Positions 11,026 to 46,562 of a stretch of DNA of 64,000 bases are shown here, piece after piece. The DNA comes from Craspedostauros australis (Eukaryota > Bacillariophyta > Bacillariophyceae > Mastogloiales > Achnanthaceae). The stretch is taken from contig JAMXDE010000054.1 of assembly GCA_026770025.1 (NCBI GenBank), forward strand, positions 186,001 through 250,000, given 5' to 3'. The notes under the pieces are model-generated. The model was not told where the DNA came from and did no database searches. It saw only the letters and a program-made list of their open reading frames with translations. The first letter of the stretch is position 1. Every line of letters begins with the position of its first letter. The translations under genes were made by a program, and so were the position numbers.

Positions 11026-14000
11026 TTATGCGCGCTGCGTGGAGTTGTTTTCGGCGCCGTCGAAGCAGATGGTGCAGCACCGGCATCGAACGCGCGCGTT
11101 GGGACCTCCGCAGTCTGCTGCAATCAGAGGCTTGGGCGTGATCTCGCACAATCCCTCAATTTCGCCCTCCATCTCATTATCATACAGGTTGACCAGATCT
11201 GCACACGGATAGTCGAGTGCGGTGCCGGGGGTTTGTGTGCGTGTTGTACGGGTGCGTGCGAGGAGAATGGGCAGAGATTGGATGCGTTAGCGATTGGAAT
11301 GTACGACGTGGCATCGTAGTTGTGATGGGACGAGTGCCGATGCATGCGTCTCAGCTTCATGCAGGGATACTCCAGCCACAGCATCAGGCAACGCGCTCGG
11401 AATGAAAACCACGAAACTGTACAAAAACTCACTCAAACGGGCCAACCGTCTCATCTGCGGCGGCGTGCTGCCGGTCAACTTGTTGCTGTTCAAGTCAAGC
11501 TGGGTCAAACGATTCAAATTTCCAATCTCGGAAGGGATCATGCCACCCAATCGGTTCGACGACACGTCCAGACGTTCCAACTCGTACAGTTCTCCAATGG
11601 CCGTGGGAATCTCGCCGGTTATCCGATTGCGCGACAGCTGCATGGTCTTCAAGACCAGCAACCCGCCAATGGATGATGGCAGCTCTCCCGTCAGGTGATT
11701 GCTTTCAAAGTCAATCTCCTGGAGGGATTTCAGCGCGCCAATGCCCGACGGAAAAGACCCTTGGATGTAGTTCTCTGCGAGTGTGACGTGTTGCAACGCG
11801 GCTGCCTCGGAACCGGCCGATAGGAAGCTCTCCCACGGAAATGGACCCGTCATCCTATTCCTGTCACCGTGCAGCTGCTTCAGGTGTCGCAGCGCACCGA
11901 CGGCATTCGGCAAACTCCCAGCAATTTGGTTTTCAGCAAAATTAAACACCTTCATACTTGCCAAGCCGCCAAGGGTCGCGGGAAAGCTCCCAACGAAGCT
12001 GTTCGATGAGATGTCCAGCGTCTCAAGTTGGCTTGCCTCCGCATCGACCATGGCGAGACCTTCAATCAGCGTTGATACGTTGCCGCCAAACAGGTTGTTC
12101 GTGGCGTTGAGCACCTGCAGCTCCTTGATGCCGTTTTTTGTGCCCGATTGGAACAGAGCATCCAAAGAACCGCCGAGGCGGTTGTGACCGACCGAGATTG
12201 ATCGAAGTTTCGTGAGGGTGTTGATGTCGGACGGCATGGTCCCGGAGAAAATGTTGGAGGAGAGATCCAGCGTCTCCAAATTGGTGATGGTCGTCATCAT
12301 CAATGCAATCTTTCCCCGCATGAAGTTGTGGCCAACATCCAGCGTCGCCAAATTCGGGGTTGCTTCAAAAGTCGGCAGGGTTCCCACCAGTGTGTTGCTC
12401 TGCACCACCAGAGCCTCCAGCGTTGCAATGTGTGATATCTCCTGCGGCAGTTCTCCGTTGAGACCGTTGTTGGCTGTGAGGTCAGCATTAGATAGTATTG
12501 ATTGTATCATAGTATGATAGTGGTAGAAGTTCACAATGGGCGCATCAGCAGAGTTTGCAGTGTGAGGATTTTGTTGTGCAGTAAAGTGCAGTGCAATGCA
12601 GTGCGAGGATGTACGACACAAAGGAGCACAGCTTCGCATAGCATGGCGCAGTGTAACATGACGCATCTCGGTCCACAACGTACCCAATCGAATCCCAGTC
12701 ACGTAACCATCGTCGTCGCATTTGATGCCGCGATCGTCATCCAAATACCAGTCACATTCGTCCGTGTTGGAGAGGAAGCCGTAGGACTTGTCCCACGAAT
12801 CTCCGGAGGTCGCATGCCACAGCGATGCCAAGGCGTAGCGTTGCAGGAATCGATCGTTGTTTCTGTTGACCCGCTGTTTGGAGATGCGATCGCCCTGGAC
12901 CCAATCGAGCGCCAATTTCTGCGGCGACGCTGGCTTACCAAGAACGCTGGTGCCAGCGCTGTTGGCGGTGGAGAGGAAGGATCTCACTGTGGAGTCAATG
13001 TCCTGTTCACGGTTCGTGCGTTTGCCGTTGGCGCCAAATATCACGAGTACGCACACCGAGATGCCCACCGTGGCAGTGACGAACATCAATAGAGCCACCA
13101 AATACACCCAAGTTTCGTTGGTCTTGGGATTCCGTGGTATGCTCGTCGTGAAAAGGCTATGGTTGGACAGCGCGCTTGTGAGCAAGAATCTACGTCCTCC
13201 GGTGACGCTGTTGGAATCGTTTGCCTGTCTGGATGCATCCTGGTGGGTCGGTGCTGATTCTGCGGAGCGTTTCAGCGTGCTTCCTTTGGCCGCAGTGGCG
13301 TTGTTGGGGCTCTTATTGCCGCCGCCGCCGCCAGTATTGTTGTTGCTGTTGTTTGGATTGTGCCTGCGTGGATACGACGCAAAGGTGCCCGCATTGAATT
13401 GACCGGTGTACAGCTTCTGCCGTTGACGCGATTTGGAAGTCGATTTTTCAGACCGGAAGCTCGCAGGTCTGGCGACAGAGTTGTTGACGCTATGAGAGGA
13501 GTAGTCCATCGATAGGAGGCGGGGTGGCGGCGTGAAGGCTTGCATGATGGTCGTCGTCGTGTGGTTGTGCTTGCCCGTGCTGCGGCGGTGATCGTTGCGA
13601 AGATGGCTGTCTGGAGATGATAGTCTGGGATACCGACCGACCGGGCTGCTGTAGTCCGGCTTGGTCTTTTTGACCTGGACGAAGGACTGCTTCCTCTCCT
13701 GTGTGTGACTTTGGAGAGACAGGCTGCGCCGTTCGTGTCCGCTGTGATGATGTCCCGGCATTTCGTTGATCCCTTTGTCCTCCGCGGCCCTGGCCGGTCG
13801 CAGTGATGGAAGCGACGATGACGATTGCACGGCGCTTTTAACGTACATGTTCTTGCGATCCCGCGGTGGCGACGGCGACGGTTCCAAAAGGCTTGGCATC
13901 GTGCTGTTGCCTGGTGACATGGTGGATGCCATGCTGGTGCTTTGGATGGACCCAATCCGCCGCACGTCCGATCGTTGGGGCGATGGATGATGCTGTTGCT

Positions 14001-15987
14001 GCTGCAAGTCGCTCTGCTGCTGTCTGCGCTGGTGCATCAGCAACATGGCATCTTCCGTCACCATCGACGAGGTGGCCGTGTTGCGGCTCTTGCCGTCATC
14101 GCCGGTGTCTATCGATTCGAAGCTTGACAGTTTGGGGACACTCTCGCTTCCTGCCATGCTGAGTTTGGAGGATTCGCACGAGCGCACATCTTCCGATACG
14201 ATGCTGGATAATCGTGGCATGCCGACGGTCGTGTCATCTTCCTCAGTGCTATCAATGTCTGTGTTGTTGTCGGTGATGTCGTTGTTGTTGTCGGTAATGT
14301 TGTTGTTGTTGTTGCCAACAGTGTTCTTGTTGATGATATTCGCCGCGGTGGTGGTGTAAGCGTACGGATCTTGATGGTTGTTGATGTTGTTGGAAGGATA
14401 GTCGCCCTCATCATCGTTCATGACATCGTCTTCGTCATTGATTGGAACCATGTAATCGTCATCAAGATCATCATTATCATTATCGCTGTTGGCGTGAGCA
14501 TTGCCAATGTCGATATCGTCATCCATACGGATCATCTCTCTATGATGGCTGGTATCCTCAATGCGGCTATCGCCATCGTCAGTATCAGGGTCGTCCATTT
14601 GCATTTGCATTCGCATTTGCTCGATATCATTGGGAATATCGCGATGATGTACTTCCTGCTGATCCGTGAGGTACTGCTTGGCAATGCGGAGGATGGAGGA
14701 TCGTTGCGCGCGAGGTTTATCCTGATCCTGTTGCAGACCGCGGAAGGAGGCTTCGGAGGACGCCCTGCTGGGTGGTTCCTTGCTGGTGTTGCGCGTTGGC
14801 AAGGTGTGGCTCGAGGCTTGAAAGGCGTGCGACGATGGGTAGTGATCTGCCGCGTCGATGTTGGACGGATCCCGCAGGCTCTGTGACAACGACATGGATT
14901 CGGATGTGGATGAAGAAGTTGAGGGTGAGATGGAGCGTTTGTTGGCCAAGGGTGGCTCCGTGATGGCGAAGTGATGGTCGTGGGTGGAGGATTGCATGGA
15001 GCTGTCCATGGAGACCGTGGCTGTGCTGGCGATGTTGCGGTTGGTGGAGGATGACGTCGTGGTGTTGCCATTTCTGGAGCTGTCCAGCGTGTTCGGGCTG
15101 TTGTTGGTGAAGCTCTGGCTTCTGGTCCCGGAATGCGAGTTGGATTGGGAATGGGAGCGGGAACGAGAGCCGAGGCCGGATGGATTGTCAAGACCGATGA
15201 TGTGGTAGCTGCCTGGGTCGTTTTGGTCTTCCCCGCTCGGCTGGGTCATGTTTGTCAACTGGAGCACGTCGTTGGGGACAGTGGGCGTGACGGGAGGTGC
15301 CATGAGGCCTGATGCGTCGAGGTTCTTTTCCTTTCGTTGTTGCTGTTGTTGCTGTTGTTGCTCAGACTGCTGCTGCTGCTCTTTCAATTTCCTTTGCTGC
15401 TTCTGTCTCTTTTCCAACTGCTGCTGCCTCTTCAAGTCCTCAAGATGCCGGATGACACCAGAGCTGTCTCCAGTTTCCACCGCATTTTCCAACAGCTGGA
15501 CCAATCTCCGTTGCGCCGACGACGACGATGTGGAACGGGACTTTGACATATTCTGACTGCCATTGCTCCTGCTCTTGGATCGTTGGCTATCGTTGTTGAG
15601 GACGAGCGTGACCGGAACAGACGGCGTTGATGCCGCTTGCTGCTGGGGATGATCGGAATGGCGCTGCAGAGGGTTCTCCTGCGCAACCCCAGCAGAGATC
15701 TTGGCGTTGTCTATGGTGTGTGCGGATCTACTGATCGACAGACGATCTCGCAGTCCCTGCTGCCTCATTCGTTCCTTCTCCAGCCTGGCAAAGAATTCAT
15801 TCGATGACACGGACGATGCGGATTTGCGCACAGTTGCGGCATCTATTTGACTGCTGGGTTGTCCAGGAGCTGATTGCGTATGTGCGTGTGCATGCGATGC
15901 CGGTTGATGCAGTCTATGCTGCGCTGGATAGACGTCATCTTCAGCCGTGTTGGAAGTGACAGATGATGGTGATTCAGGGCTGTCCAT
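11026..15987 (-). CDS. Type II membrane protein with extracellular LRRs (LRR-1)
   Basis: Three exons: 15987-12684, 12473-11433 and 11198-11026. Introns have GTACGT and GTGAGT donors, both joins keep frame, and the first restores 'GIRLANNGLNGELP'. The product is about 1505 residues. Residues 1-955 are a disordered cytoplasmic region rich in Ser, Gln, Asn and Asp. One TM segment lies at about 960-985 ('WVYLVALLMFVTATVGISVC'). The extracellular part begins with a cap ('ALDWVQGD', 'RYALASLW', 'ECDWYLDDDRGIKCD') and continues with about 12-14 plant-type LRRs ('LETLDISSNSFVGSFPATLG'). It ends 'LCEITPKPLIAADCGG' plus a CRCCTIC cysteine cluster. No kinase domain is present. This is the diatom LRR receptor-like architecture; ligand and partners are unknown. 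The first intron is stop-free and a multiple of three, so read-through also gives an open frame. Confidence 0.88.
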
Positions 15988-17353
15988 GGTCGTCCGGGTA
16001 CTGCGAGCGTGGATATGCTTTATGAACAGCGTGGACTTTCACAGCCTGGACGTGAACAGCGTGGGTATTGCTGTGCTCTGCTGTTGAACCACCGGTCAAT
16101 GGAGGTTTGATGGTCGAATGGTTGGGCGGCTCTTCGATGAGGAACCGGTCGTCCGCCTTGGGCAGTGAGGGGAATGAGGGAATGGTGCAGGGAATCGTTC
16201 TTCCTTGCCCTGCTCCTCTCTATTGCTTGCTGCTCTTGCGTCTGTTCTTAGCTTGGGCACTTGCTTTGCTGGCTTGTGAGCTCAGAACCGAACAAATGAG
16301 CGCACAAAGCAGAGCAGATCCGTACCCAATCTGTGGCTGTGTGCGTGTTCGATCGGTACTGCGACAATTACCTCTCGATTTGTGCACAATGAGATCACAA
16401 AAGTTGGAAGAAGAGTCAAGAGAGTAAATTTGGAGGCGATGGATAGTAGTACGATGGATGCAGTTGAAGTGATGAAGACAACCTCTCCAGTGGATGACCC
16501 TGCCGATGACGTCAACAGACTCAAGCAGGAGGGTTTGTCAATGTCGATCTCTTCCTCTTGACGTTGACGTTGACCTTGACGTCGATGCCGGTGCTGGTGC
16601 CGATGTTCTTCCTATCCTCTGACCTGCTGCTGTCTCACTCCTCCTGTTCTTGCTCGTCGTCTTTGTTGTCTCTCGAGATGTGCGGTTATCACCATCGTCG
16701 TCGTTCCCGCTCTTCTCCGCCCTTGTCGAGCTTCGTTGCCGCCAACACGGTGTTTCTGGTTCACACGTTTGTGGTGCACACGTTTGTGGTGGAGCACTTC
16801 ATGTCCAACACACATGAGGAAGGCAAGGCGCAAAGAGCCGAAATCTGTCCCCAGCCAATCAGTTCTGTCGCAGCTGCGCACGCGGGATATTCTCGGACGC
16901 AGGTGGTCATTTGTTGGACTTCTTTGACATTTTGTGAATGTGCAACCGGCGCTATGCCTAGCGTTTTTTCAATCGCTTAATCACAATGTGACATCAACAC
17001 TTCGCTCACATGCTAGGGATTGGAAAATAAGTCCGTTCTGTCCCTTCCGACTTTGCCCGAGTTCTTTCCAGTCGTGTGTCGGCTAACCGTCCTAAAAAGT
17101 CCTTGACTCCCGCCAAACCGAATCCCAAAACCTCAAATCGTTCGCTCCTCACATCTTCATGCGTTCGTTCATTCAGATGCGCATCCATGCTCGTTGTCCA
17201 ACCAACGCAGAGCGCACCAGTATTGTGTTATTGTGCAGACATCCTGCGAGCAGGAGGAAGAGCACTCCGCAATTGCAATGCTACTATGATACGATATACT
17301 CTAATGAAACTAGAGAATGTTCTGCTCTAACTCTATTACGTACATACACATTG
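15988..17353. other. Promoter-side intergenic region of LRR-1
   Basis: About 1.37 kb upstream of the LRR-1 start and downstream of the four-TM gene. No gene supported. Short overlapping plus-strand frames, including one near 16558-16980, have no recognisable features. Confidence 0.5.
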
Positions 17354-24080: not shown

Positions 24081-25282
24081 TTTTTGGTTGGAACAAAGAG
24101 ATGGCGGATGCTCTCTCGGCGGCGCTGGCAATCCCATCAAAACCTCCAAAAAGCGGGCAAGGCTGCGGAACGACGTCATCCGCCGGTTTCCTCACATCGC
24201 CGGCAGAAAACCTTCTCCTTGTCGTCGCCAAGGGAATCCGCCGAACAAACAAGTGCCAACCATGATTGAGAGTTACCACCAACAGCCCACCCATCATCAC
24301 CATCATCATGCAACCAATCCAGTCAAGCACACAGAGAAATTCCACGTCACTCCGCCGCAACCCCGTTCTTTCGCATGCATCACAATGCGTCCCCGAAAGT
24401 AAGAACGAGACTATCAGATCGCAAGTCCTCCAAAGTATTGTACCGCACTCGTATGTACAGTGCGCTGTGATGGTACGTGCTTTTGCTCGCATGAAGGTAC
24501 CATCGGCTTTTGCCCTGGTTGCTGATCCTGGTCTTGTTGTTTTTTTTGTCTGGTGACAGGAACTCGGTGAAGTAACAGCGGGGTACGCGGATGGCATGGG
24601 AAGGCAGGAAGCATCCTCTCGACGTATCAGTGTTTGTTTGGTTCTTGTGATGTGCGCGGGACGGCGCCGAGTTGGAGATGGTAGGCTATCTTGGGAGACC
24701 ACACGATTGTGTCCATGGTACCTATCGACCATACGAGCGACAAGCATCAACGACTCGACCAAACATAGAGCGTGCTTCGTTCTGATGCCAGTACTCTGCA
24801 GGTACTGCACATGTGTCGTAGAATATTTTACTTTATACTACCTCGTGGCTCAAGAAGGCAACGTTTGCATTTCGCATAGTCGTACGTCCCGACTTCGTTA
24901 GCCTGTTTGTGGTTCCGAATGGATCAATGTGGAGTTTTGTGAGGTGTTTGGTGGCAGAACAGCGCGCGAGTGGTCCAAAAGCGCTCCACACGATGTTCAC
25001 AAGGTGGCTGAGGCGGCCTCTGCGAGATGGGCGAATCCTCGTTTCGCACAAGTTGCCATTCCACCATTCTCCAAGGCGTACACGTACGCGTGGCGCTGGC
25101 TGGGATGACCATTCTCCGAAACAATCCCTGTGGCTGTGTTTCGTGCCTCCCGCATCCTTCACATTCCGGACGAGACCACCGAGACGACGGATCATGAGAA
25201 TCGTGATGTTTCGACGAGGCCGTACTCGCGTGCGTAGGTAGAGCGGCAAAAGTGCGTTTTGGTAAAGATGTGTTTCCTCTTG
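24081..25282. other. Intergenic between coiled-coil gene and transposon
   Basis: About 1.2 kb with no supported gene. Open frames on both strands reach 175 codons near 24833-25360 but cross the transposon end and show no domain. Confidence 0.5.
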
Positions 25283-25313
25283 GGAACCGCGGTAAAGACC
25301 ATATATTGGTCGG
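25282..25313. repeat. Left terminal inverted repeat
   Basis: A 32-bp sequence starting GGGAACCGCGGTAAAGACC, the exact reverse complement of 31602-31633. The inner part (GACC-ATATATT-GGTC) is itself nearly palindromic. Similarity does not extend further into the element. Confidence 0.92.
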
Positions 25314-25481
25314 TTTGCCGATGGGACTCCAATAGTAGTCCAAGTAATCCGTTGCAACAAATTAGACTATCTAGAAGGTACTACCGTAGACAACAAATCG
25401 TCCTAGTGTGATCATGGTGATTAGAGTTATTCGTTAATAGTGTTATTCTTGTTCGTGTGTTCAGGGGTGGTCGGGATAGTC

Positions 25482-27420
25482 TCACTCGGTCTCTGTGCTG
25501 TCGTCATCGCCCTTTTTCAAGTTCGCAGGTGCTGGTGTGGCTTCGAAATCGCTGTCGCTATCGCTGTCCATGTGGAGGTCGATCAACACAGCCTCACGCT
25601 TTCTACGCTTCGTTTTAGCGATGCGCGGTGCGCGGGCGCAGGAGGGGACAGGAGGCGGCACCACAACCGAGACGGGGACAGGAGGAACAGCCGCTGGGCT
25701 GGAACGGCATGCCATGGCACGGGGAGCACGTTTGCGAGAAGCAGAACGGCGCGCGCGACGAGCGACTGTCATCCTGTGCACGGACGCACGAGATGGCGAA
25801 GGAGCAGACTGGCCAATCGGAAACAAAAAGAAAGCAGGTGTGAGTGTGCAAGTTGATGTCATGCGCAAGAGGCGAGTGTGGCATCGATGGGGCTTACCTC
25901 GTAGCATTCTCCGAATCCGGTTCCTCGGCGGCCTTGTGGAATCGGGGGACGAGCAGCAGAGGACGGAACAAATGTGACTTCGTCCTCCCCAAGCGAGGAG
26001 TAATCATCCCCATCCATTGTAATGCCCGCGGAATGCTTAGTTGTTTTATTCTCCGCCTTGCGCCCGTAGCGTGCCAAGTTGGTGGCACTGTGCACCACTG
26101 GATTCGCGGAGTACACCGGTACCAACCGAACAATCAAAAGAGGCGCATCAGCCTCCACCTCGCTGTCGCGGTCATTGAGATTGACGGCCGGATTGAGGAA
26201 GTCGACGCCGTGCATCGCATGATCTGTGGTCATCTCAAAACGATCACTCACTTGGATGGGGAGAATCTCCCTGTGAATGCGGTAGGGTTGGGGGTGTCCG
26301 CGACACATCCTGCGAACAGCAAGCGCGTACGACTCGCCCCGCTCGCGTTGTCCCTGAAAAGAACGCATGTTGAAGTGTGTAGGCAGCTTCTCGTTCAGGC
26401 GGTCAAGCAGCTCCTTGTCCGTAGCTGCAGTGGATCCGAGTTCGTGGTTCTGCTTCAACCCCACCTCCAAAACGCGTCCTTGCTCCTTGATCGACGCTTT
26501 GACGTCGCCGTAGCAAGTCCCACCTGGCAACTCGAAAGTAACTTCAAGCACCTCGCCATGCCCTTGCGGAGAGTACACGTGACGCACAGCAGGTAAGAAG
26601 ACCAGGGTGTTCTTGTTCATCCAATCAGAAATGGATTGCGCACGACTCGGACCCTCTTGGAAGGGTGTCCCAGATACGGCATTGTTCACGAGCATGCTGG
26701 TAGCAGAGGCAGGACGAACAGCAGCAGGAGAAGCCACAGGAACAGACGAGGGCTCAGGAGGAGCAACAGTCATCATGCTCGCCGCGTTGTATGCAGGTCT
26801 GGGGGTTGGTGGCGGATTGGTGGGGACAGGTGGCAGATGGGTGGGGACAGGTGCCGCGACGTGCGCATGGATTGGTGGGGCGGACGGACGGGCAGTTGTC
26901 CCAACTTCGGTTTCGCCGGTTGGTGGGGAGGCGTACGCCAAACGAGAGAATGTGTCCATCGTTTGCTTCGCGTCTTCGGGTTTCTGGGTTGATACTTTTG
27001 CGATGGTGTTGTCGAATTGTTGTTTGTATTGTACAGCATTAGCGACAAGATCAGAAACGTTCGGAGAGTTTTTGGTGTCCATTCGCACTGGATAACGGGT
27101 TAGTAACGGTTTCAAATTTGTTCATTCAGAAATCATGTGTCTGGTTCACAAACACGCAGTGACGTACCAGCTTTTGCTTCTTTCTTGGCGCGACTTCGTT
27201 TCACAGAATTGCGCAGATTACGCAGGTTCCGAGCAAAGTTGCGCTTCGACAAGAACGCCAAGTCGCCGTTTTCGCTCCAGACGAGTCTCGCGGGCTTATC
27301 CATGGGGATGACACCGCTCTCGAGCTGTGCCCTGAGTTCGCGGATCTGCGGGTACAGTGACTCGTTCCATGCGACCCCATCGGGACTGTCCTGTTTCTCC
27401 GCAGTAGCTTTTCTTGGCAT
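25482..27420 (-). CDS. Transposon accessory protein, three exons
   Basis: Exons 27420-27168, 27087-25898 and 25808-25482. Donors are GTACGT and GTAAGC, acceptors are CCAG, and both joins keep frame. The product is 589 residues (the frame is also open upstream to about 27618). Exon 1 is basic ('LVWSENGDLAFLSKRNFARN', 'KRSRAKKEAKA'). Residues about 115-235 are Pro/Ala-rich. Residues about 250-410 form an ordered domain: 'VFLPAVRHVYSPQGHGEVLE', 'VTFELPGGTCYGDVKASIKE', 'QPYRIHREILPIQVSDRFEM'. The alternating beta pattern loosely recalls HSP20/p23-type sandwiches; I have seen similar blocks in unassigned diatom proteins, so this is inference. Exon 3 adds clustered basic residues (RRARRSASRKRAPR, KTKRRKRE) and an acidic Asp/Ser tail, suggesting a nuclear protein. 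It sits where PIF/Harbinger elements usually carry a Myb/SANT-like partner, but no Myb/SANT signature is visible. Confidence 0.75.
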
Positions 27421-28192
27421 GTTGCAGTGGCACTTACTGTTGAATGGCGGATCAGCAACAAGTACACGTCTGTCAATGTTGAATCCAAGGCGATTATGAG
27501 ATGAGACTGCAGCTTGACTTCGTTGCATTCCGCAGAGTAGAGGTTGCCGCGCGTGATCAACATGCGGCTTGTGATGTGCAGCATCCGTGTTTGAGAGGAT
27601 GAGGGAGCCATCAATCAACGTGTCGCAGCGTGGTAACAGTCAACGCGAAACATCGGCAGGAGAAACGCTGTACAAAACACGTGTGGTGTAGAGCTCTACT
27701 CTGCCCATTTAGTTTTCAACGCATGCTGTTTGCCTGGCCAATCCCACGTTCAGTATGGCTTGCTTTAGCTGTAATTAGAATGAATGTATACATCTATTAT
27801 ATATATATGTTACTATTAGCATCTTATACTATATCCCTAGGCATATAAGTGTATACCTACCGTTGGTCTAGACGCAACGCTCAACGTACGAAAAAGGACG
27901 GCTCCGGTGAGTCGACGATTGTGGAGGCACATGGTTCTTCTGTCGTGTGCGACACTCGCCCGGCGTATTCGCCGGCCACTTGTCTTCCTCGTTGACTTTT
28001 CACCATGTGCTTCATGGCGCACGACGTGGGGAGCTGGTATCTGGGGAGCCGTTGGAGCACCGATGTTTGACTCGCGTGCGCTGCACCATGTGCCTCTAAA
28101 CGTCAAGCATCGGAATAGACACCGACACGACATGGAATAACCGCAGACACGAACCAGGATCTTCGTGGGCGTAACATAGAATCGTGATAGAA

Positions 28193-28282
28193 ACGAGCCA
28201 GGACGTCCTCAGACACGGCACAGAACCGCACCAGACACGAGCCAGGACGTCTGGAGACACGGCACAGGACAGTCACAGAGAA
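28193..28282. repeat. Two copies of a 44-bp direct repeat
   Basis: The block ACGAGCCAGGACGTC followed by AGACACGGCACAG occurs at 28193 and again at 28237. A weaker third copy (ACGAACCAGGATCTTC) lies just upstream near 28149. Confidence 0.7.
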
Positions 28283-28661
28283 CACATCGACACGAAATGA
28301 GCACCAAATGAGCATCCAATTACCGCAGATTTGTCGCTGTGACAAGCGCTCAATCTGTACCATGCTACGTTATCGAGTCAAGTTGTGTTGTAAACAGCGA
28401 TATAGTGCATAAACTACAATAAGCTTCGATGGATAACGGCATACTGTCGATACCATTCAGAATATTTGGTTGCTGTTGATTGGTTACAGCATTTACAATC
28501 ACAATTAGCATGAGAGTTGTACTCCGCAGGATTTGAATACTAGGAACGTATGGCATTGTGACAAATTCGTATAAGTTATAGTGTCGTATGTGACATGTTG
28601 ATCTCGCAGAGATGGACACCAAAAGGGAATGCAAACGACGTGCAATCGACATCATGCGAGC

Positions 28662-28990
28662 GCGACGTGAACACGATGCGAGCGCAACACGAACGTGACG
28701 CGAACACGGCGTGAACACGGCGCGAGCGCAACACGAAAGCAACGTGAGCGCAACATGCACGCATCGTGAACGCGACATGGACGCATCGTCAACGCAACAT
28801 GGACGCAACGTGAACACGACCTGGGCGCATCGCCAACGCAACATGCACGCAACGTCAACGTGAGTTGCACGCGACGTGCACCCAACGTAAACGCGACATG
28901 AACACGACGAGAGCACGACGCGAGCTCCACATGGACGCATGTGGACGCAACGTAAACGCGACATGAGTGCGACGTGAACACGACCTAGTC
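28662..28990. repeat. 11-bp minisatellite, about 30 copies
   Basis: The consensus unit is close to GCRACRTGRAC. Units follow each other with 11-bp spacing for about 330 bp, with one 10-bp unit near 28935. Units are diverged at R/Y positions but keep the CRAC core. Because 11 is not a multiple of three and the unit rarely makes a stop, long open frames arise through it by chance. Confidence 0.9.
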
Positions 28991-29656
28991 CCGACATCGG
29001 GCAGGATTTCAAATGCGTTGCGAGGTTCGGTTTAGTGTAATCATGGCTGGTGATCAATTATCTTCTGACTGTGTGGAAGTCCACTCGGAAATGGAGTAGT
29101 AGTAGAATGCAGTACCGTGTTGGCAAGGATGAGACTTCACAGAGGATGACTCCTGCTCGAAACATCGTTTCTCCGCCCTCCGCAGCGTGCCTTGCTTGCA
29201 AACGCGTACAAAGGGCACAGCGCACTCGTTCGTCCATGACAGCCCCCACGCTGTCATGAAGACGCAGGGATCATAACAATATTCAGCGACGAAGAATAGA
29301 ATCTGACGTATTGGTCCGTTGAATTCTGTCGTTTCTGGCATCTTGGACATGATGAAGCGCCTTGACAGCGGCGTTGTGGGACAATAGTGCGCGTTTGTTG
29401 CGTTCTCTGCTGTCTTGCGTGCTGGGTAGCGCACCCATGAGAACAGCTCCCCAACGGCAAAAGGAGACAACAACTGGTCTACCAGGAGTCACGCAGAGTT
29501 CGCGGAGAAATGCTGTTTCCTCCTCTTACCAAGTTGCAGTTTGCTTGCGCACTATTTCTACTATTACAACGGTTACTTTTTGACATTGTTGGTTTTCGCC
29601 TCATTTTGATATTTGAAGAGGAACAAAGAGCTCACAAATTCGCAAGAACGCAAACC

Positions 29657-30669
29657 ATGTTGCTCCCACGCGGAACTTTCGCTGCTTTGGGGTTCGGACT
29701 GATTGGGTCTCGCCCAAGGGGCATGCTGGCGAACGATCTTTCCGTGGAGTCGTTGCGACAGTTCGCGTCTGTGTTCGGAACGCATCCTGACATTGTGCAC
29801 ATCTTGTGGAACGAGCTCGTAGACGCTCGAGCTCTCCCGCGCGGGGCCAAACCCAAACATCTCCTTTGGACGTGCGCGTTTCTTCGCCTGTACGTGTCGG
29901 AGACTGCGCTCGCTGCAGTGTGCAAGTGTTCGGCCAAAACACTTCGCAAATGGATGTGGCTGATGATGGCAGCCGTTGAAACCGTTAAGGATCGCATTGT
30001 AAGTACTAATAAATTCGCACACCCGAACTGCGACACAAAATTATTTTCACTCCATTCACTCACACATGGTCCTTTTTTTCGTGGTACCGCTCCAATTGAC
30101 AGATTGTCTGGAACCGTCGTTTCGTTGGCGCAAGTCAAAATGCAAAAGCTCTTGTAACGGTTGATGGGACGGACATGCGAATCACCGAACCGAAACCGTT
30201 TGACAAGAAGTGGTACTCGTTCAAATTTCGCGCTGCTGGCTTGCGTTACGAGTTGGCTGTTGCGATTTCTACTGGCGAGATTGTTTGGGCGAATGGGCCT
30301 TTCCCGTGTGGCCTGTTGAACGATCTTTCGATCTTCCGCCTGGGCCTGAAGCCGAAATTAGTGCAACACGAAGTCATCGTCGCAGATGCCGGATACCGTG
30401 GGGACCCTTGTGTGTTCCCCCCAACTTTTCGCGCGGATGGCATCATGCGGTGCCGCCACGAAACGGTCAACAGGCGAATCAAGCACTGGCAATGCATGCA
30501 CCTGAAGTGGCGGCACCACGTCAACAAGCATCGCCTTGCATTCAACGCGGTTGCCATCCTCACCCAAATTGAATTGAGCAACGGTTTCCCCTCGTTTGAC
30601 GTGGTTGTCGCGATGCAAGAAGCACGCGAACGTGCCATCGCCCAAGCAGATGAACAGCACACACACTAA
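29657..30669 (+). CDS. PIF/Harbinger DDE transposase
   Basis: Two exons: 29657-29998 and 30103-30669. The intron has a GTAAGT donor and a GACAG acceptor and is phase 0; the product is 302 residues. The N-terminal part has a helical region with 'PKHLLWTCAFLRLYVSETAL' and 'CSAKTLRKWMWLM', the helix-turn-helix-like segment seen before the catalytic core in these transposases. The DDE_4 core follows: 'VTVDGTDMRITEPKPFDKKW' (first Asp at about 135), 'VIVADAGYRGD' (second Asp at about 209) and 'CRHETVNRRIKHW' (Glu at about 234). The motif 'ANGPFPCG..NDLSIFR' is also typical of the diatom branch. The protein cuts and joins DNA at the element's ends. All catalytic residues are present. The frame is open upstream to 29510, so a longer N-terminus is possible. 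Confidence 0.92.
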
Positions 30670-31601
30670 TTAGCCTGTCCCACTTAGTAGTAACAAATAG
30701 CCCAACTTTAGCAAGCACAAAAGGTTCATCCCACATGCCCCCCTTGCCTGTTTGAGTGAGTGTTGTTAGGGTGTCCTGATTACGGGGTAGTAATTTTAGT
30801 GCTATGTTTTGCTGTTGGAGGTTTGAAGGACTTCCTTGTTGTGGTTGCATGTGGGACGCACTGAATAGCCAGTCCAGGAGGACGAAGGAGACGAGGAGAC
30901 ACCAACGCTTGCCCAAGAGAGTCCCGGTTTACATCATGGACAAACGAAGGGCAACATCAGCAAGGCATCTTGGGCATCCAACCACAACGACGTTGAGCGG
31001 AGGGACGGGTTTGTGGTCGCCACCACTGCCCACAACGGTAGCGATGCCAGCGCCATGAGTCCTCAGCAAAGAATGCGGTGAACATCGCGAGGAACGTTGG
31101 GGAGTCACGCGACGCTCAGGCAGGCAGGAACAAAGAGAGTGTGACCTTTTCTCGTGTAGAGTTCTGCAGTTGGCGAATCAAAGCCAATGACTCTCCGGAG
31201 CACGAGGCATGGCGCATATTGTTGGGAGCCCTCACCTGGATCAAAGGTGGTGTGAACAGGAACCGCACGGAGGAGGAACCGGAAGAACACAAACGGCTGT
31301 TGCGAATCAAGGTTTGTGCGGAAAGCGAGGCTGTCGTATGGGCCATATTGACAAGAAGACAGCGATGTGATGTCGTGGGTCTGGAAATTGGCATGTCTTG
31401 GAGCAGACACGACAGGGGTGGAACGAGCGCAAAGCGGACATCATTGGCATTGGCACACCGTGCACGACATGTCGAGCACGTACGTAAATAAGCGCAACGT
31501 CAAGTCAACACGGGAAAGGCGTGCTCTAGTAATACCATTAGTGGTTGACTCGACAGATCCCAAAACCGTACAACACGCCTCAAGCGTGAGTAAAGCAAAA
31601 T
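30670..31601. other. Transposase 3' flank within element
   Basis: Between the transposase stop and the right inverted repeat. One plus-strand frame (31078-31491) is listed separately; the rest shows nothing definite. Confidence 0.5.
31078..31491 (+). CDS. Possible third transposon ORF, weak
   Basis: A 137-codon frame with somewhat protein-like composition in its middle ('HEAWRILLGALTWIKGGVNR', 'EEPEEHKRLLRIKVCAESEA', 'RQRCDVVGLEIGMSW'). No motif is recognised, and opposite-strand frames of similar length overlap it. It could be a genuine small protein, an exon, or chance. Confidence 0.25.
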   Translation: MNIARNVGESRDAQAGRNKESVTFSRVEFCSWRIKANDSPEHEAWRILLGALTWIKGGVNRNRTEEEPEEHKRLLRIKVCAESEAVVWAILTRRQRCDVVGLEIGMSWSRHDRGGTSAKRTSLALAHRARHVEHVRK

Positions 31602-31633
31602 CCGACCAATATATGGTCTTTACCGCGGTTCCC
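31602..31633. repeat. Right terminal inverted repeat
   Basis: Ends GGTCTTTACCGCGGTTCCC and matches the left end over 32 bp without a mismatch. Confidence 0.92.
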
Positions 31634-33049
31634 TTGTTCCTCCCATCACTCGTGTATACAGCATAGTAGTACTGTCGACACATTTGACAATGTCCAGGAT
31701 GGTACTCGCAGCATGGATGCAGACGTCAGCAACAAACCACGGAGGATGGTAGAATAGAACGCTTCGTAATCATCCACGTGTATGGTACGAGTAAGACAAT
31801 TCGTGCCACGCCCACCACTGTGTATCTATTTCATTCTCGTCCGCATCACGCATCTGCTTGGTTCAGGCGCCATGATTTTCCATGATCCATCACGCGTGAT
31901 CCTCGATTGTTGAGATTGGAATTGATCGTGGACAAAGGAAATCGAAGAAAAATGAGTTGATGTCCTGCCACTTCGTCCCACGCACGTACTAATACGCTAC
32001 ATACTTCCAGACTCTGCGTGGATCACCCCAATAGCCGAAGTGGATACTCTGCACCAGAACACAATGGTACGAGCATTGGCCACCTTGGAATTCCAGAGAG
32101 AGAGAGAGAGAGAGGGAGAGACGAAACGCAGGTTTACATTCGATACATCCGTAGGAATTAGGATGGCGGCATTCCAACTTTGCACGAGACGAGGTCAACC
32201 TTTGGCGACGAAACAGCGAGAAACATTCTGTGGGCATTGCCCCTTGGATAACTTCGTCCACACTCGATGCGAAACCAGGTGTACATATTATTAGTAGGTA
32301 TTCTACCATTAGGGCACGACTTTCTCTCTCTCTCTCTCTCTTGTGCCAGAGCCCTTGACATAACGTCCTTGGTGCTCGTTTCCTTTTGCGAGTACGGTAC
32401 GGTACTCATCTGCCGTACGAGGCAGAGTACCTATGGAAATAGTTCGGTGGCTGAGAGTCAACGGATGCAACAGACTTGCATTCAGCGGTATTGCAATTAA
32501 ATCTCTGGACCGCCGTTGCATCGAGCATCCTGTTTCTCGTATGTGCGTATAGTACATTGGATCAGGATGCCCTGTTGAAACTAGAGGGAGGAGACAAGCA
32601 AGTGGGTTGAGCTCCTGTCAGGAGAGTCTGTCTTGCTCAGTTTCTGCGCTATCATGGACCAACGATGACAGAAGCGAGAGAGAGAAGGAGAAATAGAGAT
32701 GAGCCGTCCACAGCCATCCATTCGTACTTCGCCACGGAGATGTACGCACCAATCCGATAGCTTTCTGTTCGCTGCTGGGATAAAGGCATGCGACGTCGGG
32801 ACAAAGGGAGTGTTGTGTTATTTCTCTTCAGAGTACATCTATTTCACTTTGCGTTACTTTACTTGGCATTGTATTATATCATATTACATCATATTGTGCA
32901 AATGTATGTGTTGGCGTGGACTGTCAGCTTCTCGTTTGGCGAAAGTCCCTTGCCGTGCCTTCGGTTCTTGTGCCTGGGTCTTGACTTGGCAACATGCCTC
33001 ATTTTGGATGGTGGTAGTCACCGAACGTCACATGGCATCACGCTTGGGC
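31634..33049. other. Intergenic with simple repeats
   Basis: No gene supported. Holds a (GA)n tract at 32095-32118, a (CT)n tract at 32323-32341, and a GTACGGTACGGTAC cluster near 32393-32430. Confidence 0.55.
32095..32341. repeat. Paired GA and CT dinucleotide tracts
   Basis: A (GA)n run of about 20 bp and a (CT)n run of about 19 bp lie about 200 bp apart in opposite sense, so the transcript could fold back on itself. Flanking bases are not complementary, so they are not transposon ends. Confidence 0.75.
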
Positions 33050-39107: not shown

Positions 39108-41954
39108 TCACAGCATCTGGCAGCAACTGCAGGAGGGGGTCTGCGACTGCTGCACGATGACCTGGAAGATGGAGGGGATGGAGCAGAGCAATTCAAAGTC
39201 TCCCGTGATGTTCGTGAATTGAAACAGGCCCGTGACGAGGGAGTTGAGGTTCGCCAACTGGGTTGGCAGGACTCCGCCCAGGTTGACGTTGCCGTCAACG
39301 AAGAACTGCTGCAGCTTCGCCAGTCTGCCAAGATCCGTGGGCAGCGATGACGTCAGCTCGTTGCTTCCCAATCGCAGCGCGGTCAACTTGGCCAGGTCTC
39401 CGAGCTGCGACGGTATGGCGCCATCGATCCCGGCTGCCACCAGATCCAGCAGCTCGAGATCCTTCAGCAATCCCAATTGAGATGGGATGTTGCCTTCAAA
39501 GTCATTCTCGCTCAGTGCCAACGATTTCAGGTTCATCCAGCTGGAGAGCTGCGTCGGCAGATTGCCGGTCAGCTCGTTGCGTGACAGATCCAAACGTTCC
39601 AACGACAGCGGGAGGTTATCAGTCAAGTTGCCGCGGATGTTGTTGCCAAAAAGCAGGGCAGTGCTCAGTTTCGATGACGGTTGGTTGAAGCTATCGAATG
39701 GAAACGTGCCCGTCATGCTGTTGCTACGTGCGTTGATGATCTCGAGATCCGTGAGCAAGGTGCCCATGTCGGACGGGAATGATCCCGACATGGAGCAGCC
39801 TTGGAAGTTGAGCTCCTCCAGTTGCGTCAGTTGGTTGAGGTCGCTGGGCATCTTCCCTTCGGCATCGCGGTTGGATGAGATGACGATCGTCTTGAGCTTC
39901 GTGAGTTTGGTGAGCACCGTGAATGGGTTGCCCTGGATGATGTTGGACATCGCGACGAACTCGTCCATCGAATTGGCAAAGTGCTCCAGCTCGGATGGAA
40001 TGGTGCCCCTGAGGTCGTTCGAGGACATGCGGATGATCTGGACGTTGCCCTTGGGGTTGCATTGCACTCCCGTGATGACCCCGTCGTCGGCCACGCCGTT
40101 CCAATCACACTCGGGCGTGCCGGCCGAGAGAAAGTTGTTGGACTGGGACCAGTTTTCGCCATCCAGGGAATAGTAGAAGACAGCCAAGACGTAGCGTTGC
40201 GACATGACGTTGGTGGATTCCAAGAAGGAATCCGATGTGACGATCCAATCCAACGCCTTGGACTGCGCGGATTGCGGGTTGGCCCAGGCTGGATGATTGG
40301 GCGGTGTGATTGTTGACAGCGTGGCTCTCAGGTCCGCCTTGAGTTCACCGTTAGACACGCTGGGAGGCGACGTCGGTGGGTTCGTGGACGATTTTTGCGG
40401 ACTACTGTTGGAACCGCCCAACCCCACCACGGCTCCAATGATAGCACCGATGACGATGACCAGCACCACGATGCCAATGTAAATGTAGTTCTGCGACGAT
40501 CCCTCCTTGGTGGGCGAGGAGCTTTCCTCGTCACCGTCGTCGCGGTAGGCAGATGTCTGGACCGACCCCCGAGAATCATCAATCCTCCGACCGCTGCGAT
40601 CCATCTGCGCGCTGGTATCGAGACGATCAGTGCTTGAATGCGGGTTGTTGGGGGAAGCAATTGTCATGGTGGTGCCGGGCGCGTGTTCCATATTCTGAAT
40701 AGACACGGTGTTGGCCTGGCTCGTATCGATGCGCGGATTCGTGACAGCGCCTTCTTCGTGCATGGTCGCAAGCGGCGCATGCGATAGACGATTGGGACGC
40801 ACAGCGCTTGGACGACTGGGCGTGAGGCGACCTTTGAGACGGCTCTGGGAGATGGGGTCGTCTGGATTTTGCGGTCCCGCGATCGCCATGGCACCAGGTT
40901 GCGCTACGAAGGTAGTGCGTTGGCGACGCAACGACATGGCCCTGGCGTCGGGAGACAGCAGCTGATCCGCCTCATCCTGATCGGGACCGCGCGTGAACCG
41001 GGTGGGCGTGGGTCTGTAGAATGCTTGGTTGGGCGGAGCTGCCGCCGTGTCCGGTGCAGAATGCGCGTGAGCGGATGGTTGCGATATGGCCTCGTCTCCT
41101 GCTCGTGTGGATGGATGGATCTTTCGTTCCAGCGCCAAGTCCGCAAGCCACGCGGCGTTTTGTTGCAAAGCGACAGAGTTTGTGGCAGAGGTCGCATCAG
41201 CCCGCATGGTGCCGGAGTGCGCTGAACTCGATGCAAGATCGGATGGCTCAGTCATATCGGACAACCGAACGCCCGCCGTGGCGAAGGAATCCTGGCTGTA
41301 CATCGAATCGCGGCCTACCTCGTTCTGCATCGACGTTTGCATCACATACTGCGCCGCCATCTTCTGATTATAGTCCAGCTGCGCCTGCGATATGCGGTCG
41401 TCCGCATGCGGTGTCGTGTCGTCGTTTGTGATGACTTCGCGTTCATAGTGATCGTGGATGGCCTGCAAGACGGGTTGGGTGGATGCATCCGATACAAAGC
41501 TGCTGGTGGATATTCCCACACTGTGCATGCTGGGTCCGCGCAGTTCGCCCCGGTGCGGTTGCGCATTGTGGGAGAATCCGTCATGGTGATCACTGTGGAA
41601 GTGCTGCTGCTGATGTTCATGCTGCTGATGTTCATGCTGCTGATGTTCATGGGCATCGAATTGATTTTGATTGATGGGCAACATTGATCCTCGGTCTGGT
41701 GCCATTGGTTGTGAGACAACGGAATGTGAGGCCGAGGGAGCTGAGACCAGACTTGGTGGTCGCACGGATGCCATGCCTCCTGCTGCTGTTGCTGCTGCTG
41801 TTACTGTTGCTGCTGCTGCTGCTGCTGATGACGACCCTTGAGCGGCAGGAGTAGACCGCGCTGGGTGCTGCTGATGCAGCTGCTGATGCCAGTAGCGACC
41901 GTCCTCCTCGTCGCCATCCCGCCCATTCACCGATTGCGGAGTTTGATCGTCCAT
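39108..41954 (-). CDS. Type II membrane protein with extracellular LRRs (LRR-2)
   Basis: Single exon, 948 residues, from the ATG at 41954. Residues 1-485 are a disordered cytoplasmic region with an Ala/Ala-Thr stretch and 'HEHQQ' repeats (about 100-120). One TM segment follows at about 490-512 ('YIYIGIVVLVIVIGAIIGAV'). The extracellular part starts with the same cap as LRR-1 ('SKALDWIVTSDSF', 'QRYVLAVFYYSLDGENW', 'ECDWNGVADDGVITGVQC') and then about 11 plant-type LRRs ('LERLDLSRNELTGNLPTQLS'). The C-terminus is 'SCSCCQML', equivalent to the CxCC cluster of LRR-1. It is a paralogue of LRR-1 with a shorter cytoplasmic part and no introns. Likely a cell-surface recognition or adhesion protein; no kinase or other signalling domain is attached. 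Confidence 0.9.
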   Translation of the reverse strand: MDDQTPQSVNGRDGDEEDGRYWHQQLHQQHPARSTPAAQGSSSAAAAAATVTAAATAAGGMASVRPPSLVSAPSASHSVVSQPMAPDRGSMLPINQNQFDAHEHQQHEHQQHEHQQQHFHSDHHDGFSHNAQPHRGELRGPSMHSVGISTSSFVSDASTQPVLQAIHDHYEREVITNDDTTPHADDRISQAQLDYNQKMAAQYVMQTSMQNEVGRDSMYSQDSFATAGVRLSDMTEPSDLASSSAHSGTMRADATSATNSVALQQNAAWLADLALERKIHPSTRAGDEAISQPSAHAHSAPDTAAAPPNQAFYRPTPTRFTRGPDQDEADQLLSPDARAMSLRRQRTTFVAQPGAMAIAGPQNPDDPISQSRLKGRLTPSRPSAVRPNRLSHAPLATMHEEGAVTNPRIDTSQANTVSIQNMEHAPGTTMTIASPNNPHSSTDRLDTSAQMDRSGRRIDDSRGSVQTSAYRDDGDEESSSPTKEGSSQNYIYIGIVVLVIVIGAIIGAVVGLGGSNSSPQKSSTNPPTSPPSVSNGELKADLRATLSTITPPNHPAWANPQSAQSKALDWIVTSDSFLESTNVMSQRYVLAVFYYSLDGENWSQSNNFLSAGTPECDWNGVADDGVITGVQCNPKGNVQIIRMSSNDLRGTIPSELEHFANSMDEFVAMSNIIQGNPFTVLTKLTKLKTIVISSNRDAEGKMPSDLNQLTQLEELNFQGCSMSGSFPSDMGTLLTDLEIINARSNSMTGTFPFDSFNQPSSKLSTALLFGNNIRGNLTDNLPLSLERLDLSRNELTGNLPTQLSSWMNLKSLALSENDFEGNIPSQLGLLKDLELLDLVAAGIDGAIPSQLGDLAKLTALRLGSNELTSSLPTDLGRLAKLQQFFVDGNVNLGGVLPTQLANLNSLVTGLFQFTNITGDFELLCSIPSIFQVIVQQSQTPSCSCCQML

Positions 41955-43027
41955 CGCAGGTAGTTACAACCGACTGCTTTGATTGGTTGTTCGGCTTCTC
42001 CAGGAGATTGAGGAATGCTCGTTGGAATACGATCGATACGTACGATACGAATGGAGGGAGAGACGTTGTGTGGGGGAATCAATAGAGGAGTTGAAGCTTC
42101 TCTCTCTTTCTCTCTTTGTCTTTGTCTTGAGCGGTTTCGGGAGCAGCTGAAGGAGTGGCTGAAGGAGCGACCGATCGAAGATGAAAGGAGGAATCTGCGA
42201 TGCTTTCCTCAGCGATTTCTGCACTGATTTCTTCAATGCTTTCTGTGATGCTTTCTGTGATGCTTGTTTCGTTTCTTCCTTTGCGTGCCTTCTATCTTCT
42301 ATCTTCTGTCTTCTGCCTTCTGTCTTCTGTCTCCTGTCTCCTATCTCCTGTCTCTCTGCCTCTCTGCCTTGCTTGGTGTCAATCAGTCCTGAGACGACTA
42401 ATACTATATCTGCGTTTCTGACTGTGTTCACTTCAACAAGAGCATCCATTCCATTGACGCACCACTCTCATTGGGAGGCACGATGCAATGCAATTCGAAC
42501 CCGTGCTGTTCAAATGATCAATCAATCTGAGCGAGAAAGCAGATGCACCAGTTTCATTCACCTCAAGAGTTATTGTGTCCGGCGCAATCGGTTCCTCGTG
42601 CCAATCGGCGTGGTCATTGCGGCTAATTATACATTATCTTCATTTCATTTCAACATTTTTTCTATTAATAAATATGTGTTTTATATTTAATTCACCGTGG
42701 CTTACAAGGCCTTCGATGAGCGGTTTCCTCATGGCATCCAAGCAGGATCACCAAGACTCCTTCCCAAACCAGTACCATGTGAAGAGATGGCGCCAAGCAG
42801 GATGCCGGGTATCCCCCATTCACCATGATGGTGTCAGTCTTGCATGGGATGCTCTGCAAACCTGCACGATGACAACCACACGCGCTCTGATGCAGAGGGC
42901 ATGATGACTTTGTTCAAAGAGAAGACCAAACTTTAACGTTTAATGTATGCATGCGAGGTACATGCATTACGTGGTACTCATCAAGACTGCGTATTCTGCA
43001 CAGCAACACTCTACCCTGCATCATCGA
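41955..43027. other. Promoter-side intergenic region of LRR-2
   Basis: About 1.07 kb between the LRR-2 start and the 3' end of the glycosyltransferase-like gene. No gene seen. It is strongly pyrimidine-rich on the plus strand and contains a 7-bp repeat at 42289-42351. Confidence 0.55.
42289..42351. repeat. 7-bp polypyrimidine minisatellite
   Basis: Nine consecutive units of CTTCTGT/CTTCTAT/CTCCTGT, degenerating into CTCTCTGCC repeats up to about 42371. It lies about 335 bp upstream of the LRR-2 ATG; on the mRNA strand it is polypurine. Confidence 0.85.
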
Positions 43028-45931: not shown

Positions 45932-46562
45932 CTGGCAGCGCACATGGGTCGTGATGGAGGCGCGCTTCTCTCTTGAGAATGTGAACTCGTTGTGTCTTCT
46001 GTTGCGGATGCGGTTGTGAATGTGTCAGACCCATCGTAGAGTGGACGTTAGTAGTATTATACGATCCACTACACACAGCCGTTCGACTATTCATCGACCG
46101 GCAACTTCGCCATGGTCATCTTGCTCCTTCGTTTGGCGCGAGTTTCCTCGTTTTGTGTTTGCCCTCGAAATGGAGATCGATCGAGTTGGTCAACAAGAAA
46201 CAACAAAGTGTGAGTATCAGTTCACGAGTTCAGTCTTGTGGAAGCGCACAGACTTTTCCGTTTTTGAGCGCATGGTTCTATGTCTCACTCATGTCCTCGT
46301 GAAGTCTGTTTTATAAATGATATATATCAATAGGATGCTACACATGTCAACCGCCAAATCTGTCGCAATAAGTGTTGATGTGTCTGGTGGTCGTGGTAGT
46401 AGTAAGACTGTGCGTCGATACTGGTGGGAGACGACGATTTGGCGGGGGGGCGATTGCGGTCTTGGAACTGGGCAATTAGCGCCGTGACCGTTTTTGTGTT
46501 GACGGCCAAATTTGAACTGAGGCAACCACGACCAGGTTGTGTGTGTGGTATCGTGAGTGGCG
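45932..46562. promoter_or_regulatory. Bidirectional intergenic region
   Basis: About 630 bases between the divergent glycosyltransferase-like (-) and giant coiled-coil (+) genes; it should hold both promoters. It contains a short AT-rich stretch near 46312-46335 (TTTTATAAATGATATATATC). Confidence 0.45.

Follow-up and report, generated by a model that had tools for sequence, protein, structure and literature searches.

A recently active PHIS-superfamily transposon, probably autonomous, with a 4-bp CNNG target-site duplication in the diatom Craspedostauros australis

The DNA analysed here, referred to throughout as the window, comprises 64,000 nucleotides of the diatom Craspedostauros australis (assembly GCA_026770025.1, contig JAMXDE010000054.1, positions 186,001 to 250,000) and contains a DNA transposon in which a transposase gene and a second gene lie between terminal inverted repeats (Table 1). 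Exon models of both genes were built from splice signals and open frames. The transposase comprises 302 amino acids encoded by two exons without a stop, and motifs place its catalytic acids at D135, D209 and E234, with spacings of 73 and 24. It matches Pfam DDE_Tnp_4, which we take to mark transposases of the PHIS (PIF/Harbinger-ISL2EU-Spy) superfamily, at 29.4 bits against a cut-off of 24.8, and the same domain is found in transposase exon 2 of all 11 copies examined. The second gene is intact, has three exons, encodes 589 amino acids and is divergent to the transposase gene. These observations agree with the first-pass annotation, made from the sequence alone, which had described an open two-exon DDE transposase with all three catalytic acids and a second gene within the same element.

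A PDB sequence search with the catalytic exon returned two matches, both at E 0.8, and an NCBIfam search returned none. One pattern-based scan of viral contigs found 53 stretches that fit the pattern, 0 of them encoding a relative; one such scan of bacterial and archaeal genomes, whose reach was limited to fairly close relatives, found 85 fitting stretches and 0 relatives. For the second protein, Pfam gave nothing above cut-off and one weak match far under its own cut-off. No Myb/SANT domain was matched, whether by the complete protein (E up to 1) or, across 6 copies, by exon 1 with the limit raised to E 10, a threshold at which the HMMER filters drop most matches above 0.1. A PDB sequence search with exon 2 of the second gene also gave no match.

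The inverted-repeat arms, 25282-25316 and 31599-31633, agree with each other at 34 of 35 positions. A perfect 32-bp repeat had been proposed for the element; the perfect repeat at both ends stands, and the run is 32 bp when counted from 25282 and 31633 and 31 bp within 25283-31632, since the terminal G/C pair is part of the CTTG duplication. That tetranucleotide is present on both flanks, as had been proposed. When the host genome was searched (74.8 Mb in 90 contigs), the 14-bp end motif GGAASCGCGGTAAA gave 106 matches versus 3 for a backwards control. The whole element found at least 10 near-complete matches of its subfamily, the window copy included and one (C64) interrupted near its right end, with further split, partial and related copies among the matches listed. 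The copies compared were 9 complete members of the window's subfamily (A), 18 of a related subfamily (B) and 2 of a third type (C; L027 and L089, 4.7-4.8 kb). All nine complete A copies have both ends in common and are at least 93.9% identical to the window copy, in line with the earlier description of a complete element.

The target-site duplication was determined from 52 end pairs of the three subfamilies, which were assembled from flanked copies and separately retrieved end fragments. An exact 4-bp duplication is present in 51 of them. The sole miss, L023/L024 (CAGG/CTTG), joins a window-type end to a decayed-type end about 29 kb away and is probably not a true pair. Unpaired and outside these counts are the C78 copy (L022, left end missing from the match), the single ends L073 and L077 and the C47 copy; L076 (flank GCTC, probably a chance match) and L028 (no end found by the motif) were likewise left aside. 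When the 51 pairs were compared at different lengths, the 4-bp register matched in 51/51, register 2 in 1/51, and registers 1, 3 and 5-8 in 0/51. Could this be a canonical PIF/Harbinger element with the usual 3-bp duplication and a misread boundary? The transposase superfamily is the same and a relative with 3-bp CNG duplications exists in this genome, but with 0/51 matches in the 3-bp register against 51/51 at 4 bp this can hardly be maintained. The first-pass annotation had already noticed that the duplication was not the usual 3 bp. CNNG is the pattern of 49 of the 51 duplications and occurs at 6.4% of window positions; A or T stands at the two middle positions in 44/51 and 36/51, and the base next outward is C in 27/51 on the left and G in 21/51 on the right.

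A closer competitor is a duplication of only the 2 bp NN, with an element that ends in GGGAA...TTCCC and inserts at C|NN|G. The inverted repeat indeed reaches one G/C pair into the flank, and this reading parallels the notation used for ISL2EU (A|AT|T) and NuwaII (C|TNA|G) in PMC4482050 (this and the other papers cited below by accession are used in excerpt, and statements drawn from them are limited to those excerpts). Moreover, at every CNNG site the sequence and the empty site are the same under both readings, which leaves just 2 of the 51 sites to discriminate between them. An exceptional outer base should recur on the opposite side under the 4-bp reading only, so the two non-CNNG sites decide: these are CACA/CACA (L046) and ATAG/ATAG (the C2 copy, L088a/L086). 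Both repeat their exceptional outer bases on both sides, hence all four bases are duplicated. A mutated end base at L046 is most unlikely since its twin L043, identical over 6,091 bp, sits in CTCG. We therefore consider the 2-bp duplication unlikely, and the same two sites disfavour the earlier suggestion that only the boundary convention was unusual.

Empty sites agree with the 4-bp boundary. A genome search with the joined flanks of 28 copies uncovered empty sites for 6 of these copies at seven places, covering 84 to 89 bp across the junction at 92-100% identity and each carrying a single tetranucleotide. Three of them (L092, L095 and L096) read CGCG, CTTG and CCAG, at least one base off the duplicated tetranucleotide. 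All six copies belong to subfamily B and none to the window's own subfamily; shorter junction-crossing matches (e.g., C1:3850749, 63 bp at 97%) are outside this count. Two outcomes had been named beforehand as contradicting the first-pass annotation, namely repeats scattered singly and a locus at which the element ends elsewhere. Neither arose: the repeats are paired across both genes, and the empty sites, which are paralogous and belong to related copies, stop at the called boundary.

Recent movement of the family is evident from copies at separate sites. L043 and L046 show 0 differences over 6,091 bp, and L012 and L013 differ at 4 of 6,347 positions, with different flanks and duplications within each pair; L040 and L041 differ at 4 of 6,212 positions. 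Identical copies at separate sites (L043/L046) imply very recent transposition, and the recent movement proposed earlier is thus borne out for the family. Might the window copy nevertheless be a fossil that is complete but has lost its mobility? A number of copies are split or partial, the genes have decayed in the two fully read 4.7-4.8 kb copies, and the copy nearest to the window copy differs from it at 34 of 6,348 positions. Against this, both genes are open and the splice-site dinucleotides kept in 8 of the 9 complete A copies (the second gene is intact in 8/9, L010 being frameshifted). In raw counts, to which no rate model was applied, synonymous changes exceed non-synonymous ones: relative to the window copy, the transposases of the four most diverged A copies carry 20-23 synonymous and 5-8 non-synonymous changes, and the second genes of the three of these four that are of equal length carry 29-30 and 22-23, respectively. 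Together with the identical copies at separate sites, this makes the loss of mobility very improbable.

By tblastn, a stop lies in transposase exon 2 in 1 of the 18 B copies and, for 2 of the 18, in exon 2 of the second gene. Identity of the window copy to the 10 of 18 B copies aligned is 94-95% in the catalytic exon; for the large exon of the second gene, identity to the 9 of 18 B copies aligned is 63-67%. Type C copies L089 (C1:1012703-1017538) and L027 have intact ends and two decayed genes. CNNG duplications flank 13 type C end-fragment pairs, one nested pair and also L027, which with L089 is one of just two type C copies read to full length; type C copies were presumably moved by proteins from intact A or B copies. 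Beyond L089, 12 more type C pairs have the same ends, one of which, on C52, holds a nested insert. Ends like those of the window subfamily were also seen on copies of other subfamilies (left ends of L039 and L027, right ends of L043 and L046), as if recombination or conversion had taken place between subfamilies.

Taken together, the element is best explained as an autonomous PHIS-superfamily transposon of the cut-and-paste kind, complete and recently active, that duplicates 4 bp of its CNNG target, a reading to which we assign a probability of roughly 0.87. In this model, the 302-aa DDE transposase would cut the element at GGAA...TTCC, and the excised element would be joined to C-NN-G targets whose two strands are cut 4 nt apart, where gap filling would yield the 4-bp duplication. 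The second protein may act as a helper of the transposase, by analogy with ORF1 of PIF/Harbinger elements, in end binding and nuclear entry. Harbinger3 ORF1 binds the ends and carries the transposase into the nucleus, and Ping/Pong ORF1 is needed for transposition (PMC2836001).

Several points weigh against this explanation. The cut positions and the role of the second protein are predicted, as are mobility and expression. AlphaFold models of the catalytic exon (pLDDT 36) and of second-gene exon 2 (pLDDT 33) are of very low confidence and leave both folds unconfirmed; owing to the poor prediction for the second gene, absence of a Myb fold from its product stays unproven. The window copy itself, given its distance to the nearest copy, is not among the youngest. 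Among the matches listed, inspection by eye of 43 transposase rows at 43-53% identity revealed no second-gene match within 8 kb, and at that level the second gene could either be too diverged to detect or lie outside the wider lineage. The element is set apart from the named PHIS groups by their descriptions and not by a tree. Lastly, the change in stagger relative to the 3-bp family described next could have run either from 3 to 4 bp or from 4 to 3 bp.

Transposase relatives at 43-65% identity occur in the same genome among the matches listed. At 23 of the 27 listed transposases of 55-65% identity, a second-gene homologue is located within 8 kb, encoded on the other strand and again divergent to the transposase; a 24th case, C64:242983, has its partner at C64:248843, which was skipped by the nearest-match rule. 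This count used all 27 listed rows of that identity range and 30 of 75 second-gene matches (relatives only, entered by hand). One relative, whose transposase is about 60% identical, sits nested in a type C copy; its ends, GGAGGCGCGGTAAT...ATTACCGCGCCTCC, are similar to those of the window element, its duplication is CAG, and the uninterrupted site is given by L089. Pairs of this relative were picked by exact end motif (33 matches vs 6 in the control), and 8 of 9 show a CNG duplication (CTG 5, CAG 2, CGG 1), with none matching at 4 bp. CWG is present in 7/9, and the exception, on C3, reads CTG/CAG. Seven of the nine pairs flank a transposase of 59-60% identity, the C8 and C28 pairs being those that do not among the matches listed, and four more single, unpaired ends are flanked by CTG, CTG, CTG and CAG. 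The stagger would then be one base apart between the window lineage and its 3-bp relative, with the outer target C and G unchanged.

Another family, at 64-65% identity (C40, C50 and C8), has left ends GGAGTCGAGGTAA flanked by CAG, CAG and TTG. The sequence read for this family covers its left ends only, and two pattern tests gave 2 matches each. Its copies at C40:381900-390100 and C50:289226-297426 (L120-L123) are 99.8% and 100% identical over two stretches with differing left flanks, and appear from this comparison to represent another recently mobile family. The C21/C5 family is outside the end-pair counts.

Canonical PIF/Harbinger elements are defined by a 3-bp TWA duplication and mostly have a Myb/SANT second protein, and the duplications of the PHIS groups are TWA, AT, none, ANT, CWG and C|TNA|G (PMC4482050). 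For Harbinger relatives, duplications of 0, 2 or 3 bp are given, with TA elements added (PMC12730594, 2025). IS5/ISL2 elements are counted with PHIS elsewhere, and the whole set is described as having no duplication or one of 1-4 bp, so that 4 bp as a length falls within the stated range (PMC10045372). Harbinger elements of the brown alga Ectocarpus duplicate ANT or TNA (PMC12477816), Harbinger-like elements have been recorded from Thalassiosira pseudonana, a diatom (PMC2806351), and odd lengths have already been reported, since fungal elements with a Harbinger-type transposase have a putative 6-bp duplication (PMC3627910). With 31-bp inverted repeats and 4 bp duplicated, the window element agrees with the PHIS description of inverted repeats and a 0-4 bp duplication. 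The 3-bp TWA of canonical PIF/Harbinger and the 3-bp CWG of NuwaI are both absent from the window family (0/51 in the 3-bp register), and the duplications of ISL2EU, Spy, Pangu and NuwaII (AT, none, ANT and C|TNA|G) differ from a CNNG target duplicated as 4 bp. On sequence grounds, the element thus belongs to the PHIS superfamily and not to canonical Harbinger; the earlier label Harbinger holds for the transposase superfamily and fails for the canonical group, in view of the missing TWA and of a second protein with no Pfam Myb/SANT match.

The nearest likeness by description, not by tree, is to NuwaI and NuwaII (PMC4482050), in transposase superfamily, G-rich ends and a C...G-flanked target. 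NuwaI duplicates CWG and the 3-bp relative of the host duplicates CNG in like manner; the window element differs from both Nuwa groups by its 4-bp CNNG and the lack of a Myb/SANT match. The NuwaI elements described come from animals alone, those of NuwaII from animals, fungi and plants (PMC4482050). Canonical PIF/Harbinger elements (Ping/Pong, Harbinger) resemble the window element in their transposase plus second gene, short inverted repeats and transposase superfamily, and differ by TWA and by a Myb/SANT second protein, for which the window element gave no match. The TP in the name of the Harbinger4_TP family presumably stands for Thalassiosira pseudonana. That family has 3-bp duplications and is placed near Nuwa (PMC12730594). 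ISL2EU, Spy, Pangu and PHISTA have a transposase of the same superfamily and duplications of AT, none, ANT and TA (PMC4482050, PMC12730594); Pangu is described from a heterokont and two algae with a second gene without known motif (PMC4482050). From the bacterial IS5 family, which is counted with PHIS (PMC10045372), the window element differs by its spliced genes, its second protein and no NCBIfam match.

Among the open-access papers listed on Harbinger duplications, PHIS groups and diatom Harbingers, none was seen to describe a eukaryotic PHIS family that duplicates 4 bp as CNNG. A 4-bp target, YTAR, is presumably the one used by IS5. What is new here is the occurrence, in one genome, of a eukaryotic PHIS lineage that duplicates 4 bp and a relative that duplicates 3 bp. 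We lean towards regarding it as a eukaryotic PHIS group new to the literature consulted, characterised by a 4-bp CNNG and a second protein of non-Myb/SANT type kept at least as far down as about 55% transposase identity, in which the stagger would have shifted by one base without loss of the outer C/G contacts or of the end-motif core.

The target duplication is the character that defines PHIS groups (PMC4482050), and here a young 4-bp family and a 3-bp relative that have end motif, transposase type and second gene in common occur in one genome. Such a pair could reveal which protein, and which of its residues, set the spacing of the transposase cuts. The identical copies at separate sites suggest that a functional transposon occurs naturally in this diatom; it may also serve as a gene-transfer tool.

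Table 1. Parts of the transposon and its target-site duplication (positions in the window).
Feature	Positions	Strand	Basis or remark
Complete transposon, 6,350 bp	25283..31632	+	Both ends common to 9 complete subfamily copies; empty sites for copies of related subfamily
Target-site duplication, left copy, CTTG	25279..25282	+	Read from flanking sequence
Target-site duplication, right copy, CTTG	31633..31636	+	Read from flanking sequence
Terminal inverted repeat, left, 31 bp perfect	25283..25313	+	Opening 14 bp GGAACCGCGGTAAA; GGAASCGCGGTAAA across subfamilies
Terminal inverted repeat, right, 31 bp perfect	31602..31632	-	Arm comparison
Second gene, exon 3	25482..25808	-	Basic stretch resembling a nuclear-localisation signal (by eye)
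Second gene, exon 2, conserved region	25898..27087	-	Homologues beside related transposases
Second gene, exon 1	27168..27420	-	Splice signals, open frame
Degenerate direct repeat, non-coding middle	28656..28859	n/a	78% self-match over 160 bp, 44-bp offset
Transposase exon 1, 114 codons	29657..29998	+	Frame intact in 9/9 complete subfamily copies
Transposase intron, GTAAGT...CAG, 104 nt, GT-AG	29999..30102	+	Splice signals
Transposase exon 2 with DDE domain	30103..30669	+	D135 codon 30163, D209 codon 30385, E234 codon 30460

The host genome is rich in DDE_Tnp_4 transposases, with at least 150 matches of varied length genome-wide (150 of 227 candidates were scored, the window copy not among them). 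Elsewhere in the window, long open frames on the minus strand at 11287-16038 and 39108-41963 look by eye like leucine-rich-repeat transmembrane proteins, and two adjacent open frames on the same strand, at 43459-44787 and 44852-46024, look by eye mutually related. The silicon-transporter family PF03842 marks silica-forming algae. It has 88 matches in this genome, of which 32 are nearly full length and 28 of those are without a stop (e.g., C11:710408-712021 and C9:2024068-2025684), an apparent large expansion of silicon-transporter genes.

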